A program made the position numbers and the translations under genes. The notes under the pieces were generated by a model that did no database searches, was not told the origin of the DNA, and saw only the letters and a list, made by a program, of their open reading frames with translations. Below, in pieces: positions 55,410 to 62,953 of a DNA stretch of 64,000 bases (its first letter is position 1; the number at the start of each line of letters is the position of its first letter). The stretch covers positions 310,001-374,000 of the forward strand of contig JACTVG010000001.1 in the NCBI GenBank assembly GCA_015660965.1, read 5' to 3'. Origin of the DNA: Methanoregulaceae archaeon. GTDB lineage: Archaea > Halobacteriota > Methanomicrobia > Methanomicrobiales > Methanospirillaceae.

Positions 55410-58061
55410 TCACAAACCGTTTACGATTTCCTCAAGGGTCGCGATAAGCAATTCCACTTCATTTTTTGTGTTATAGAGTGCAAGACTCGCTCGCACGGTC
55501 CCTTCTGAAAGTCCTAGATAATCCATAAGTGGTTGGCAGCAGTGATTACCAGATCTAACCATAATATCGGCACTCTCATCAAGCTGCTTTGCAACCTCGT
55601 GCGGATGAACACCATCGATTGTAAAAGAAACGACACCAATGCGAGACTCCGGTTTTTCTGGTGCATATATTTGCACGCGATCAATCTTTTTCAAACCCTC
55701 AATGAGTAGTGTTGTAAGCAAATCTTCATGGTGCCTGATATTTTGCATCCCGATTGATTGGAGATAATCAACTGCTATACCAAGTCCAATCCCGCCAGAG
55801 ATGTTAGGTGTCCCTCCTTCGTATTTTTGGTAACCTTCAGCAAGGGTGTATCCGTCTTTAGTAACGGATTCGACCATACCTCCACCCAATATTGTGGGTT
55901 TAATTACAGGGTCTTTCATCCAAAGAACTCCCGTCCCGGTTGGTCCTAGCATCTTGTGTCCGGAGAATGCAAGGAAATCGCACCCCAGCAATGAGACATC
56001 TATTGGCATATGGGGGATAGTCTGTGCACCGTCAATAAGTAAAAGAGATCCATTATCATTACATATTTTTGCAATTTCCTTGACTTGTGTAATTACACCG
56101 ACCACATTTGATGCATGGGTGATAGCGACGAGTCGAGTTGATTTAGTGAGTATATTTTCCAGAATAGTAAGATCCAAGGAATAGTCCTTATTTATACTGA
56201 TAATGTCGAGATTAACACCCTGCCGTGAAAGGTCTCTCCATGGTAGCAGGTTTGAGTGATGTTCGAGTATGGTAGTAACAACACGATCTCCGGAATTCCA
56301 GGTAAGTCCCTGAGCGACCATGTTGATTGCTTCGGTAGTGTTCTTCGTAAAGACTGTAATGCCATTCTTTCCGCCAATGAATTGAGATACTTTATCGTGT
56401 GCATGCCAATATCGCTGCGAAGCGATTTGAGTGAGCCTATGCACACCTCGACCTACATTAGCCCGGTAACTGTGTTCGAATTCGACCATCGCTTGAACGA
56501 CAGGTTCGGGAGAAAAGCTTGTTGCGGCGTTATCTAAGTAAATAATCTCACCAAGGATAGGGAAATCCTTCCGGATTTCATTCACCTCAAATTTTCCGCC
56601 GCTCTTTTTTGACATTTCTTCTTCCAATGTTCTCTCTTTCTTCATATCAACAGTTCTATGATGCGTATCATTTATCGGAGTGCTTCGAAGAGTGTAATCT
56701 TCGTTTATCTGGATTCCTTTAAGCTTACAGAGTTCCCGCATTTTGGGTGGTAACGTCCGCCACCGCCAGAGTCCCCATTGACAAAATGCATCCGGTAACC
56801 CTTTTCTTTTAGTCCACGATTCGAGAAATTCGTCCCAACGTCGAGCGTATTCAGGATGCATGACCTTTAATAGCTCATATTCACTCTCGAGCATTGCCGG
56901 ACAGAGGAAGCACCCTATACGTTCTATACCTTTATCATAGAGTGGATTAATCGCAATTTTCTGCCACCAGAGATAAAGAAAAACTTCGAGTGCCCGCCAA
57001 TTTCGTATTGGAGATATATTGAGTTGTAATGGGTTTGCCGGGTTCTGGCTCTCCTCCTCAAGATCAGCCCGATTCCAGGATTCATACCAACGATTACCTT
57101 GGATTGTAACACAGGGACCAATGCTCGCAAGGTAGATCTTAAGAGGTCGTAATTTCAGCAGCTTACAACACCACCGATTATCTTTTCCCGGTGGTCCAGC
57201 TTTCTCAATAGCTTCCCAAAAGTCTCCGGCTTTCTGAACGATTTCCACACCTTGAGATTTTACGAAATCGATAGTTTCTGGGAATTCTATACCAGTATCG
57301 ATAAAAAATGCCTTTGTCACTCCAGCTTTTCGAGCTAGGTGAAGGATAGCAGTGCTGTCCTTTCCTCCAGAGAATGAGACATTGATTGTTGGCCTATCTT
57401 TTACGTGATGGCGAATAGCTCGGATCGCATTGCGTTCAAGATTTTTTAAATGATAACGATTCCTGTCAACAGCAACATCCCATTCGGGGTTTGAAGGTTT
57501 TTGGGGATTGACCAATACAATCTCTTTTACGCGTATCTTCCCTTCTTTTACAACACCCGTTCCAAACTTATTTTTATATTTGACAATGACTGTGCCTTCA
57601 AGTATCGGAGTTTTAAGTGGGAATTTTTTTCCTCCAATTCTGCCTGAATTTTCCGGGATATTGACTTCAGTTTCAAGATCGACAAATCCTTTGGTGATAT
57701 GGGTTATTAGAAACGGCAATGCATCTGGTGAAATATCAAAATTAAATTTTCGTGAAACAGGATCAAACGTCAGCCAACCAAACCGTTCACCGTGTATAAT
57801 CACAAGGTCAGAACGGTCAACACCACCGGTTTTGTTGAGGAGTATAATTTTAGGTAACGGTATATTGCCAAATTGCTCGTGCACGAGCTTTTTTATTAGT
57901 ATCATGTCTGCAACAAGCGCCGGGCGTATGTCGTATGGCTGGAGAAGCTCGATTCTTTTCCCATCAGCTCCACACGCACAACTCTTTCCTATTAAGGGAA
58001 CATTGCAGACCTTGCACCAGTAGAGAATTTTTTTCACCGGCGGTTCGCGAAACACAAACAT
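55410..58061 (-). CDS. fusion of PAPS-reductase-like PP-loop enzyme and cysteine desulfurase
   Basis: An uninterrupted 883-residue frame. Residues 1-472: zinc ribbon (C16, C19, C28, C30), a PUA-like region (about 110-190), then a PP-loop SFSGGKDST (S231-K234-D235) and RWCCKLLK / GCFLCPAM cysteine motifs of the archaeal PAPS-reductase-like family. Residues about 497-883: a SufS-type PLP enzyme with YLDNAATSFSPEPV, FSGHKMLGPTG (PLP lysine K703) and GNHCCQPL (active Cys841). The desulfurase half could pass a persulfide to the PP-loop half, which would thiolate an RNA or another substrate. Internal Met473 may allow separate translation of the second half. A TauE-type gene lies just upstream. Confidence 0.85.
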   Translation of the reverse strand: MFVFREPPVKKILYWCKVCNVPLIGKSCACGADGKRIELLQPYDIRPALVADMILIKKLVHEQFGNIPLPKIILLNKTGGVDRSDLVIIHGERFGWLTFDPVSRKFNFDISPDALPFLITHITKGFVDLETEVNIPENSGRIGGKKFPLKTPILEGTVIVKYKNKFGTGVVKEGKIRVKEIVLVNPQKPSNPEWDVAVDRNRYHLKNLERNAIRAIRHHVKDRPTINVSFSGGKDSTAILHLARKAGVTKAFFIDTGIEFPETIDFVKSQGVEIVQKAGDFWEAIEKAGPPGKDNRWCCKLLKLRPLKIYLASIGPCVTIQGNRWYESWNRADLEEESQNPANPLQLNISPIRNWRALEVFLYLWWQKIAINPLYDKGIERIGCFLCPAMLESEYELLKVMHPEYARRWDEFLESWTKRKGLPDAFCQWGLWRWRTLPPKMRELCKLKGIQINEDYTLRSTPINDTHHRTVDMKKERTLEEEMSKKSGGKFEVNEIRKDFPILGEIIYLDNAATSFSPEPVVQAMVEFEHSYRANVGRGVHRLTQIASQRYWHAHDKVSQFIGGKNGITVFTKNTTEAINMVAQGLTWNSGDRVVTTILEHHSNLLPWRDLSRQGVNLDIISINKDYSLDLTILENILTKSTRLVAITHASNVVGVITQVKEIAKICNDNGSLLLIDGAQTIPHMPIDVSLLGCDFLAFSGHKMLGPTGTGVLWMKDPVIKPTILGGGMVESVTKDGYTLAEGYQKYEGGTPNISGGIGLGIAVDYLQSIGMQNIRHHEDLLTTLLIEGLKKIDRVQIYAPEKPESRIGVVSFTIDGVHPHEVAKQLDESADIMVRSGNHCCQPLMDYLGLSEGTVRASLALYNTKNEVELLIATLEEIVNGL

Positions 58062-59053: not shown

Positions 59054-60163
59054 TTAGATAGGAAGTGGTATTTCGCTCGCTCCCAATTTCCTCTCAATTT
59101 CTCTGATCTTTTCAAGATTTGCTTGAGTAGACGGGCCGTACGGTACTGCTTTGCAACTTGATGCTGGACTTATCGATTGCTCGAATGTTCCAATTATGCG
59201 TGCAATACGAGTCGTCTCTTCTTTATCAAAACCAATTAACGGACGATAAACAGGAATGTCTGCGGTTTCGTTAAGTACCATGAGGTTATCAAGAGTTTGG
59301 GATGCAACCTGTCCAATGGACTCCCCAGTTACAATACCCTTAGCCCCAAGTTTGTTCGCAAAAGCCTCTGCAACGCGATACATTCGGCGTTTGCAAAAGA
59401 TACAAGTATATTTTTCCAGCCTGTTTCGGATCAGTTCTTTTTTCGCATGGGCAAGGTAAGAATCGGAGATTACGGTCAGTTCGATATCAGGTTGGAACTT
59501 TGCGAGTACGTTCACGACACGTTTTGCACGGTCGATATTGGTTTCATCAAGGAAGTTTTCAAGTGCCACAAACAGTGGGACTATTCGGCATCCGCGTTTC
59601 ATCATCATCCATGCTGCAACAGGTGAATCGATACCACCGGATATGAGTGCAATGAGTGTACCTTCGACACCTAGTGGGAGACCGCCAACTGCTTTGGTCA
59701 CGGCATCATACAGATAGCACTCATCATTCCGAATTTCTATGTGTAGTTCTTTATCGGGAGAAGCGAGATTTACTTTGAGGTTGGGAAATTCCCTCCTCAA
59801 AAGATTACCGTACTCGATCGCTTTATCATTTGAAGTGAAAGAATGCTTACCCACCCTTTTCATCCTAATCGCAAAGGTTCTTGCTTTATCAAATCCATGC
59901 CTCCGACAGTAACCTGGAAGGACTTCTTCAATTTCTGTGAGTTTGATATGCTCAACCTCAGAGAATGAAACAATGCCAAATATATTTTTTAAAAGGTCCG
60001 GTTTTATGTCACCATCAAGCCAGATCCGACCTCGTTCATTTCTCGCGTGGACATCGGGCATAACCTCCAAAATATTGGAGATCAAGACATTCTCCCACTG
60101 TCTGCGAACGGGATCGGATTTTAAAAAAATTTCAGAGTATCTTATGAGCCATTGTTTTTTCAT
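59054..60163 (-). CDS. thiI: tRNA 4-thiouridine synthase ThiI (no rhodanese domain)
   Basis: 369 residues with an N-terminal ferredoxin-like and THUMP region (RYSEIFLKSDPVRRQWE to about 165) and a PP-loop ALISGGIDSPVAAW near residue 177. CIFCKRRMYR gives the CxxC between loops. There is no C-terminal rhodanese domain, as in other methanogens, so sulfur must come from another donor. The fusion protein encoded two genes downstream is a candidate donor. Confidence 0.9.
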   Translation of the reverse strand: MKKQWLIRYSEIFLKSDPVRRQWENVLISNILEVMPDVHARNERGRIWLDGDIKPDLLKNIFGIVSFSEVEHIKLTEIEEVLPGYCRRHGFDKARTFAIRMKRVGKHSFTSNDKAIEYGNLLRREFPNLKVNLASPDKELHIEIRNDECYLYDAVTKAVGGLPLGVEGTLIALISGGIDSPVAAWMMMKRGCRIVPLFVALENFLDETNIDRAKRVVNVLAKFQPDIELTVISDSYLAHAKKELIRNRLEKYTCIFCKRRMYRVAEAFANKLGAKGIVTGESIGQVASQTLDNLMVLNETADIPVYRPLIGFDKEETTRIARIIGTFEQSISPASSCKAVPYGPSTQANLEKIREIERKLGASEIPLPI

Positions 60164-60184: not shown

Positions 60185-60475
60185 TTATTTTTTCTTTTTC
60201 GCAGTTTTGCGGACCCGAGCAACTTCGTCTAGCCCCTCGATTCGGAGCAGGTATGTTCCATGGCAAGGTTTTGTATAAGGAAAAATGATCTTTTTTCCAT
60301 CCTCGATTCCCAATGCGATTGGAGGTAATCCAATAATGTACTCATCAAAGATCTTGTAGCCGGGATCCACATAATATATCTCTTTGAAATTTCTCTCAAC
60401 GTATTCGCGGCACTCTTTAAATGATGCCCCCAGCGGGAGGATCATTTCGTACTTCAAGTTTTCGATGCACCCCAT
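60185..60475 (-). CDS. DUF1894 methanogen protein
   Basis: A 96-residue protein with LPLGASFKECREYVERNFKEIYYVDPGYKIFDEYIIG and a PCHGTYLLRI segment, ending in KTAKKKK. I recognise it as the DUF1894 family, restricted to methanogens and usually paired with DUF1890. Function unknown. It overlaps the DUF1890 gene by 22 bp. Confidence 0.8.
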   Translation of the reverse strand: MGCIENLKYEMILPLGASFKECREYVERNFKEIYYVDPGYKIFDEYIIGLPPIALGIEDGKKIIFPYTKPCHGTYLLRIEGLDEVARVRKTAKKKK

Positions 60476-60939
60476 TCAAACACCTCGTTTATCTTTATCT
60501 TCAACTGAATGGGGTTGTGAACCGCTTTTTCAACAATTTTTTCACACTTGAAATCGATTAACTCCGCAAGTGGTTCTGGATTTTTCCCAAAGATAATAAC
60601 CACTAATCGTTGATTTGGGAGTAGATGGCGCATTGTTGCCGCGTAAGAAATCGCCGCATCATTATGCGCAAAAACAACACAGAGATCCGCACTCCGTTTC
60701 TTTTCAACTACTTCTTCAATACACTTCTCCAGCACGACCATTTTAGAGACATAATGTTTTTCCGGGTCAGACACCTTTAGTAGATTAAGAACCGAAGGAT
60801 TACCGGAAGCGAGCACATCCACACCTCTTTTCTGAAGATTGTGGGCGATGTAAAGAGCAATCGCCATTTGTACTGGAACCTCCGGACAGCCCAATAGGAG
60901 TATCGCATTTTTTGGTGGTGCAATTATCTCATCAGTCAT
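60454..60939 (-). CDS. DUF1890 methanogen protein
   Basis: A 161-residue Rossmann-like protein: NAILLLGCPEVPVQMAIALYIAHNLQKRGVDVLASGNPSVLNLLKVSDP, later CVVFAHNDAAISYAATMRHLLP. It fits the methanogen DUF1890 family, function unknown, likely a nucleotide- or cofactor-binding partner of the DUF1894 product. Start overlaps the editing-domain gene by 4 bp. Confidence 0.8.
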   Translation of the reverse strand: MTDEIIAPPKNAILLLGCPEVPVQMAIALYIAHNLQKRGVDVLASGNPSVLNLLKVSDPEKHYVSKMVVLEKCIEEVVEKKRSADLCVVFAHNDAAISYAATMRHLLPNQRLVVIIFGKNPEPLAELIDFKCEKIVEKAVHNPIQLKIKINEVFEWGASKT

Positions 60940-61481
60940 TGTTTATTTCCTGTTGAGGCTATTTCCCCACTATACTGTGCAACAGAGCGACATCGGTGCT
61001 TTATATCAGCTTCTTTGATTGGGTGATTACAGTATGGACAGGTAAAGTCGCATTCGATCCCTTCATAGGGACAGATTGTCATAGAAAGGTCTGCAAGTGG
61101 ATGACCTTTGCCACGAATCTCAAATTCTTTATACCAACCAAAGGGAGCTCGTTTTACTTCAATAGATGCCCTTTTAAGTGAATCTTCTAAGCCTTTGAGA
61201 ATCGAAATGGCGCACTGAGGTGAGCCGAGTGTGCTTGTGAGGTGTGCATATGGATAAATCAAAACCTTTCTGACTTTGAGTTTTTCTAATCGATCGAGCA
61301 CATTCTTAGTCGCACTTAAAATCACACGCGTTGGATTTTTTTCATCTAATTTCTCAACGCAGCAAAAAAGAACTACACATTCTTTCATATTGTCATCTCT
61401 TTTCTCGATTATTTCCGCCATCTTTGTTTTTTGTGTAGCATGATACCACATGGTGTCTGCGTGAATAGACAGAATTCTCAT
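60936..61481 (-). CDS. free-standing ThrRS-type editing domain with zinc-binding tail
   Basis: A 181-residue protein whose first 135 residues match the N-terminal editing domain of archaeal threonyl-tRNA synthetase: [67 protein letters not shown]. That fold resembles D-aminoacyl-tRNA deacylase and removes Ser from tRNA-Thr. Instead of a synthetase, a cysteine-rich tail follows (C137, C144, C148, C151, C164). It may edit in trans or bind another aminoacyl-tRNA. It overlaps both metX and DUF1890 by 4 bp. Confidence 0.8.
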
Positions 61482-62953
61482 GATCTCTCCCTTCCGATTA
61501 ACGTGCTGATTGCATCGCTAGTAATGAGGCCAATGACGTGTTTTTGGTCATTAACAACCGGTAGAGCGGATATCGAATGCTTTTCCATCTTTTTGATTGC
61601 ATCTTCAATTGGTTCGTCAGGAGTAGATGTGATCACATTCCTTGACATAATTTCATCTAGCCATAGGTAATTCGATGCCACCGCTTTTGCAATGTCCCAT
61701 GACGTAACAATTCCCACAAGTTGTCCTGCGCTGGAAAGTACTGGTAGATGGTTAATACCCAGTGTGATCATCCGTCGTGCTGTTACAGCAATTGTCGTTC
61801 CTTCTTCAATGATCTCAACATCGTGAGACATGACATCACCAACAACAGTATGGGATAGGAACCGACCGATTAGGTAATTGAGCTGACCGGATTCTAGGAG
61901 GAAAGCATCATGTCCATAGTTAGACCGGACCTCACAATAATGAACCTCGCGCTCGTTTGCGGTGAGGGCAGAGACAATTTCCTGCGATTGGTATGACGGA
62001 TAGAGCCAATCTGAAGTAACTGAAATCACAAGATACGATGCCTTAACACTGGACAGTCCTTTGGTTAACGATCCCTCTTGTGTTATATCAAAGTAGTCGA
62101 TCGCTTTTGTAATATAGAGGTATGAATTGGCATCAAATCTTTTTGTGAAAGTATCTCCTTGATGGTGAAGGTAACTTTCGACCGCAAAATCTGTGGAAAA
62201 GTCAAAGCCGATTCGTTCTTTTCCCTGTAAAGATCTACCGAACTTTTCATGCATTGATTCGTCAGACAAGTAAGTGATATGGCCAACCATTCGTGCAAGT
62301 GCAAGCCCATGTGTCGGTGAAGATTTTCCGTAGTAATTTCCATTGTTCCATTTTGGATCTGAAGTTATTGCTTTCCTTCCCACTTCATTAAAAGCAATTT
62401 GTTGGGGTGTAGAATAACCCGTGGTTGCAATAGTGATCGCCTTTTTAACCATATTCGGATAAGAGATAGTCCATTGCAGCACCTGCATGCCGCCCATCGA
62501 TCCGCCGGCAATTGCATAAAGTCTTTTAATTGCTAAGTGATCGTTCAAAAGTTTTTGAGCATTCACCATGTCTTTGATGGTTATGACTGGAAATGTTGTG
62601 GCATAGGGTTTTTTTGTTTCGGGATTGATGGATGAAGGTCCTGTCGAACCTTTGCATCCTCCAATTATATTCGAACAAATGACAAAATAAAGGTCAGTAT
62701 TAAACGCTTTTCCGGGACCAATAACTGTATCCCACCAACCGGGTTTTTCATCACCTTCATGGAACCCAGCAACATGTGCATCCCCGGAAAGTGCATGACA
62801 GATTAAAATAGCGTTATTCTTCTCCCGATTTAATTTTCCGTAGGTTTCGTAAGCGATAGTAAGAGAAGAAAGTTTTTCCCCGCTTTCAAGTAATAGCGGG
62901 GATGGATGGTGGTAATACTTCGTTTTTACAATGCCAATTGACCCTTTAATCAT
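61478..62953 (-). CDS. metX: homoserine O-acetyltransferase with C-terminal CBS pair
   Basis: 491 residues. An alpha/beta-hydrolase acyltransferase occupies residues 1 to about 370: [11 protein letters not shown], nucleophile S152 in AGGSMGGMQ and the late YGHDAFLLE with the Asp/His of the triad. Residues from about 375 hold two CBS motifs ([18 protein letters not shown] and [18 protein letters not shown]), which could sense an adenosyl ligand such as SAM. The product O-acetyl- (or succinyl-) homoserine feeds MetY, encoded just upstream. Confidence 0.9.

Follow-up and report, generated by a model that had tools for sequence, protein, structure and literature searches.

A gene of 883 codons on the minus strand of the window (the whole stretch of 64,000 nucleotides that was analysed) joins a PP-loop protein of the PAPS-reductase type to a SufS-type cysteine desulfurase. 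The fusion is real and ancient and is found in methanogens of one archaeal order. We tentatively read its product, with a confidence somewhat short of even, as a sulfur-transfer enzyme of two parts, with a single origin in the order, that would feed the sulfurtransferase FdhD in trans and carry out ATP-dependent thiolation in cis. Translation of the window gave a single open frame at 55410-58061, and a GTG at 58055, two codons downstream, is a second possible start. The preliminary description of this DNA, which named no strand, had already taken the 883-residue frame for a genuine fusion with a zinc ribbon, a PP-loop and an intact Lys703 and Cys841. All of this was borne out: both catalytic residues occupy these positions, the four cysteines of the ribbon are present and the PP-loop has the strict ATP-type motif SGGKDS. 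The idea of a built-in sulfur donor is plausible as well. Among 40 aligned fused copies, Cys16, Cys19 and Cys28 of the ribbon were invariant and Cys30 was 95% conserved. The Pfam domain Aminotran_5 spanned residues 507-872 (1.6e-125). AlphaFold2 models were of low confidence, both for the whole protein (pLDDT 40, three sequences) and for residues 1-190 (pLDDT 41, two sequences). The features of the gene are listed in Table 1.

Table 1. Features of the fused gene and of the two sulfur-related genes upstream of it (positions in the window).
Feature	Residues	Position	Strand	Remarks
Fused gene	883 aa	55410..58061	(-)	Zinc ribbon, conserved N-terminal domain, PP-loop/[4Fe-4S] domain, linker, SufS-type desulfurase
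Zinc ribbon, Cys16/19/28/30	12-34	57960..58028	(-)	Shared by fused copies and the majority of unfused relatives
Conserved N-terminal domain	35-132	57666..57959	(-)	Homologous to the same region in the PUA-bearing paralogue family
Position of PUA in paralogues	133-187	57501..57665	(-)	PUA not recognisable
PAPS-reductase-type PP-loop domain, PF01507	226-389	56895..57386	(-)	Pfam PAPS_reduct 7.7e-37
SGGKDS PP-loop motif	231-236	57354..57371	(-)	81/81 aligned PP sequences
First half of APS-reductase-type [4Fe-4S] signature	Cys298-Cys299	57165..57170	(-)	PP alignment
Second half of [4Fe-4S] signature	Cys384-x-x-Cys387	56901..56912	(-)	PP alignment
Fusion-clade marker, candidate persulfide relay	Cys445	56727..56729	(-)	PP alignment
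Inter-domain linker	449-494	56580..56717	(-)	Fast evolving; 29-143 residues in relatives
SufS-type cysteine desulfurase half	495-883	55413..56579	(-)	Profile and PDB matches
PLP Schiff-base lysine, within SGHKMLGPTG	Lys703	55953..55955	(-)	K in 48/49 fused copies
Catalytic persulfide cysteine, within RSGNHCCQP	Cys841	55539..55541	(-)	C in 46/49 fused copies
TauE/SafE permease, PF01925		58164..58973	(-)	Upstream of the fusion, 102-bp gap, same strand
ThiI, tRNA 4-thiouridine synthase		59054..60163	(-)	TIGR00342 above cut-off; upstream, separated from the fusion by TauE

The fusion, or pieces of it in fragmented assemblies, was present in 39 of 61 related genomes. Full-length relatives, 55-73% identical, are spread across the methanogen order, single-contig genomes included, and the frame stays open at 61-69% identity in eight closed genomes (G004, G010, G011, G029, G032, G040, G042 and G057). 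A domain-fusion survey, which the preliminary description had called for, showed that the fusion recurs across the order: when 295 genomes were sampled evenly across the phylum, all full-length matches fell within this order and none was found outside. A search with the single protein in 84,980 species genomes returned two further relatives only. Two relatives bear the names Methanomicrobiales and Methanoregula. G027 and G048 encode the halves as neighbouring separate genes (tandem loci L048 and L064), with 31-51 bp between them and in the same order as in the fusion.

Quick maximum-likelihood trees of the two halves (LG+G4, SH-aLRT support) agreed with each other. The fused desulfurase halves, together with the two tandem ones, formed one clade (support 99), sister to stand-alone SufS genes that include those lying between LarE and FdhD in operons. 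The fused PP halves fell within one clade (support 97), which also contains eight unfused members; PP genes stand alone inside it at L051, L052, L053, L059 and L103. A clade of fused PP halves only was rejected by the AU test (p 1.3e-13), indicating that separations or losses occurred inside the clade. The fused desulfurase had a single origin, followed by a few separations or losses, and the tandem cases may represent either fission or late fusion. In genus g18, the PP gene has a lysine-rich C-terminal tail and a separate SufS-FdhD pair is present. The sister clade of the fused PP clade consists of 16 unfused genes and includes every member neighbouring purH and grpE-dnaK-dnaJ; at L054, L055, L057, L058, L065 and L067, the unfused PP gene belongs to a conserved block, in which it is divergent from purH and lies directly upstream of grpE-dnaK-dnaJ.

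The desulfurase half was matched best by the SufS model (TIGR01979; 431.5 bits, under the curated cut-off of 475.1) and, among known structures, by PDB entry 5b7s (2.2e-108). It shares Lys703, His602, Cys841 and Arg857 with SufS-type (group II) cysteine desulfurases, each of these residues being kept in 46-49 of 49 fused copies, but differs from them in carrying a PP-loop protein at its N-terminal end and in belonging to a genome without SufE. Since SufE (PF02657) was found in none of the 61 genomes, another persulfide acceptor would be needed. Some SufS enzymes work without SufE. The lack of obvious desulfurases, to which the preliminary description had appealed, does not apply to the host genome, which encodes NifS next to IscU as well as another class-V enzyme.

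Three genomes contain fusions with a degenerate desulfurase half. In G038 (L031 / L080), the half has K703R and C841D among other changes; in G031 (L049) and G022 (L050), it has C841G, with Cys842 retained. Each of these genomes also holds an intact-looking stand-alone SufS adjoining FdhD, suggesting that the separate SufS can relieve the fused one and supporting a shared role. The PP half is intact where the desulfurase half is degenerate, so that it does not need an active cis partner there.

FdhD, the sulfurtransferase for Mo/W cofactors, was the dominant neighbour. It lay within 1 kb of 20 of the 39 fused genes and of 12 of the 29 stand-alone desulfurases, as against none of the 21 unfused PP genes; for the fused set, we estimate a chance expectation of about 0.1 (99 FdhD genes in 61 genomes). 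FdhD occurs next to the fusion in three arrangements (convergent, upstream and downstream), and this variation of order and strand between genomes indicates that the linkage has outlasted rearrangement. As the two genes are often convergent, they are not always co-transcribed, and as evidence of function such a neighbourhood is indirect. The active-site cysteine of FdhD (SGCGGS) was retained in all aligned FdhD sequences. The FdhD adjacent to the fusion (e.g. L074, L075, L077 and L079) is often a lower-scoring, divergent paralogue in comparison to that of SufS-FdhD operons, and several genomes carry two or three FdhD genes.

Stand-alone SufS genes occur in LarE-SufS-FdhD operons. At L112 and L113, the genes of such an operon overlap by 1-4 bp; at L084, the fused gene stands where SufS would be. 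The desulfurases of the archaeal SufS-FdhD and LarE-SufS-FdhD operons form sister clades to the fused one and have FdhD as a partner in common with it, but they stand alone, without the PP-loop half. In the host genome, LarE adjoins FdhD without an intervening SufS, 12.7 kb from the fusion and outside the window; neighbours of the pair are an NcsA/TtuA-like gene and a NifS-IscU-MoeB-MoaD-MoaE run.

The adjacent TauE-type gene and thiI had been taken as strengthening a sulfur theme. Both are present here, but TauE adjoins the fusion elsewhere only in L050, and divergently, so that a functional link to TauE was dropped. ThiI is adjacent in L047, and in L064 it directly precedes the tandem pair; in the ThiI of the window, no rhodanese domain was found. 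ThiM-ThiE follow the fusion in L046, L069 and L070. Adjoining ThiI in the window are genes for DUF1894 and DUF1890 (60185-60939, minus strand, overlapping by 22 bp), a block that recurs beside the fusion in L047. A free-standing archaeal threonyl-tRNA synthetase editing domain of 181 aa (60936-61481, minus strand) is encoded between the DUF1890 gene and that of a homoserine O-acetyltransferase (MetX) with two fused C-terminal CBS domains (61478-62953, minus strand); such an editing domain also adjoins ThiI in L080. Just past the window end, in the same sulfur-rich stretch, SepCysS, the enzyme of tRNA-dependent cysteine synthesis, adjoins MetY (L132 854-2227, minus strand).

In the two-part reading that we favour, Cys841 would take up the sulfur of cysteine in persulfide form. 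In trans, FdhD would accept this sulfur and pass it to the Mo/W cofactor of formate dehydrogenase, and perhaps likewise to that of formylmethanofuran dehydrogenase. In cis, the PP half with its predicted [4Fe-4S] cluster would activate a target with ATP at the SGGKDS site and receive sulfur from the desulfurase half, probably through Cys445. In the PP alignment, this cysteine is a marker of the fusion clade: it occurs in 46 of the 48 fused PP halves, in both tandem ones and in five of the six other unfused members, as against 1 of the 16 sister-clade members and 0 of the six scorable more distant ones. The two fused exceptions are the fusions of a single genus (g29), where Cys445 is replaced by Val. 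Together with its presence in five unfused clade members, this indicates that the residue is not strictly tied to fusion; its conservation pattern suggests that it could act as a persulfide relay between the halves. A cysteine-powered thiolation completed within one chain, in which the persulfide would pass from Cys841 to a relay at Cys445 on the [4Fe-4S] PP-loop domain and on to a new target, with the desulfurase also supplying FdhD, seems to us possible but rather doubtful.

Physical linkage could also serve co-expression only, with the SufS half as a general desulfurase or FdhD donor, an unrelated PP half and no transfer in cis. The lone PP halves within the fusion clade, the lineages that keep the PP half with a lost or degenerate desulfurase half, and the long and variable linker would all fit this explanation. 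We nevertheless consider it unlikely, as the fusion is retained in most sampled genomes, both tandem cases keep the short spacing and the order of the fusion, Cys445 marks the fusion clade, and a dN/dS of about 0.16 for the G031-G022 pair shows the C841G desulfurase half to be under constraint.

The target of the PP half would, as a first guess by analogy, be an RNA nucleobase, since ATP-using PP-loop sulfurtransferases most commonly act on one. An enzyme that is a self-contained RNA thiolase, with tRNA or another RNA base as its only important acceptor and with N-terminal domains that bind it, is a different matter. The best model for the PP side was PRK13795.1-1 (397 bits, with a curated cut-off of 745). 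With archaeal PAPS-reductase-like proteins of the PRK13795 type (NF010366 and relatives), the fused family has the zinc ribbon, the N-terminal domain and the PP-loop domain in common, but it differs in its C-terminal desulfurase, in its score below the curated cut-off and in having no recognisable PUA. The paralogous family carries a PUA at about 1e-19. An hhalign comparison of the two families gave 99.6% over residues 3-132, ribbon included, and the match ended where the PUA starts. In the fused protein, neither Pfam nor hhalign of residues 1-190 or 112-190 against PUA (0.2% probability) detected the PUA-like region of the preliminary description, although residues 133-187 may be a degenerate PUA. 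Besides this undetectable PUA, it speaks against RNA as the only important acceptor that the usual archaeal tRNA thiolations are already covered by ThiI and an NcsA/TtuA-like enzyme and that the dominant neighbour is FdhD and no RNA enzyme. The SGGKDS PP-loop and the zinc ribbon in all close relatives, the true PUA of the paralogues, ThiI adjoining the fusion here, in L047 and in L064, and the NcsA-like gene beside FdhD in the host genome point the other way. On balance, we would not expect RNA thiolation to be the whole function, and give this explanation a low probability.

The PP-loop domain matches PF01507 and contains the CC...CxxC ligands (C298, C299, C384 and C387), a signature known from [4Fe-4S]-binding APS reductases. 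The fold family and these ligands are also what it has in common with assimilatory APS/PAPS reductases (CysH and the M. jannaschii homologues). However, the C-terminal catalytic cysteine motif ECGLH of the CysH family is absent from the translated fusion, Cys445 lying in the dissimilar setting PPKMRELC; the fusion has the ATP-type SGGKDS in place of the degenerate loop of the reductases; and its genome has no source of APS or PAPS. ATP sulfurylase (Sat) was found in none of the 61 genomes, and strong APS kinase matches were limited to G032, G046 and G051. The host genome, with an estimated assembly completeness of 99.88%, has neither a real APS kinase nor a CysD-like gene, and PF01507 matched there only the fusion and, weakly, the NcsA-like gene. 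This absence of sulfate-activating genes argues against an APS/PAPS reductase role here. The architecture was noted in 2018 by Yu et al. as a 'putative APS/PAPS reductase', without functional work (PMC6286981), and homologues of M. jannaschii were reported to reduce APS and PAPS (PMC6286981, PMC10322725). Despite this report and the cluster signature, a role as an APS or PAPS reductase that carries its own desulfurase, which the label of that survey implies, seems to us highly improbable.

The pairing of the two halves has a likeness among DNA phosphorothioation and BREX proteins. In DndA-DndC and SspA-SspD, a PAPS-reductase-like protein works with a desulfurase. In PADLOC, the PP half of the fusion was matched best by BrxP of BREX (6.5e-38) and weakly by SspD (1.6e-11) and DndC (3e-6). 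Unlike these systems, the fusion is one polypeptide with order-wide conservation, and no dnd, ssp or BREX partners were recognised in the neighbourhoods examined.

The joining of two genes by a lost stop or another sequencing or assembly error was rejected, with next to no probability left to it: the separate genes with a stop that the preliminary description regarded as indicating such an error do exist in G027 and G048, but are minor states amid a clade of open fusions and no sign of an error, the frame is open across most of the order, closed and single-contig genomes included, and the in-frame linkers vary, that of L060 (G256) consisting of tandem TPESRAT/TPESRTT repeats.

Sulfur traffic in methanogens is unsettled, and some of them use sulfide directly, without desulfurases. 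Here, throughout a whole order, the partner fused to a desulfurase is an ATP-using iron-sulfur enzyme annotated as a sulfate reductase, and the host genome cannot make the substrate of such a reductase. The single origin, the order-wide reach, the linkage to FdhD and LarE, the absence of sulfate-activating genes, the Cys445 marker, the undetected PUA and the fusions with a degenerate desulfurase half appear to be new: a literature search that did not extend to most subscription journals turned up no paper on them, and nothing useful on archaeal PUA-PAPS enzymes or on desulfurases in Methanospirillum. The natural fusions with a degenerate desulfurase half are ready-made controls. If the two-part sulfur-transfer reading is true, it would correct a misleading reductase annotation, identify where the Mo/W cofactor of formate dehydrogenase gets its sulfur in formate-using methanogens, and provide a compact model of persulfide transfer within a single chain.
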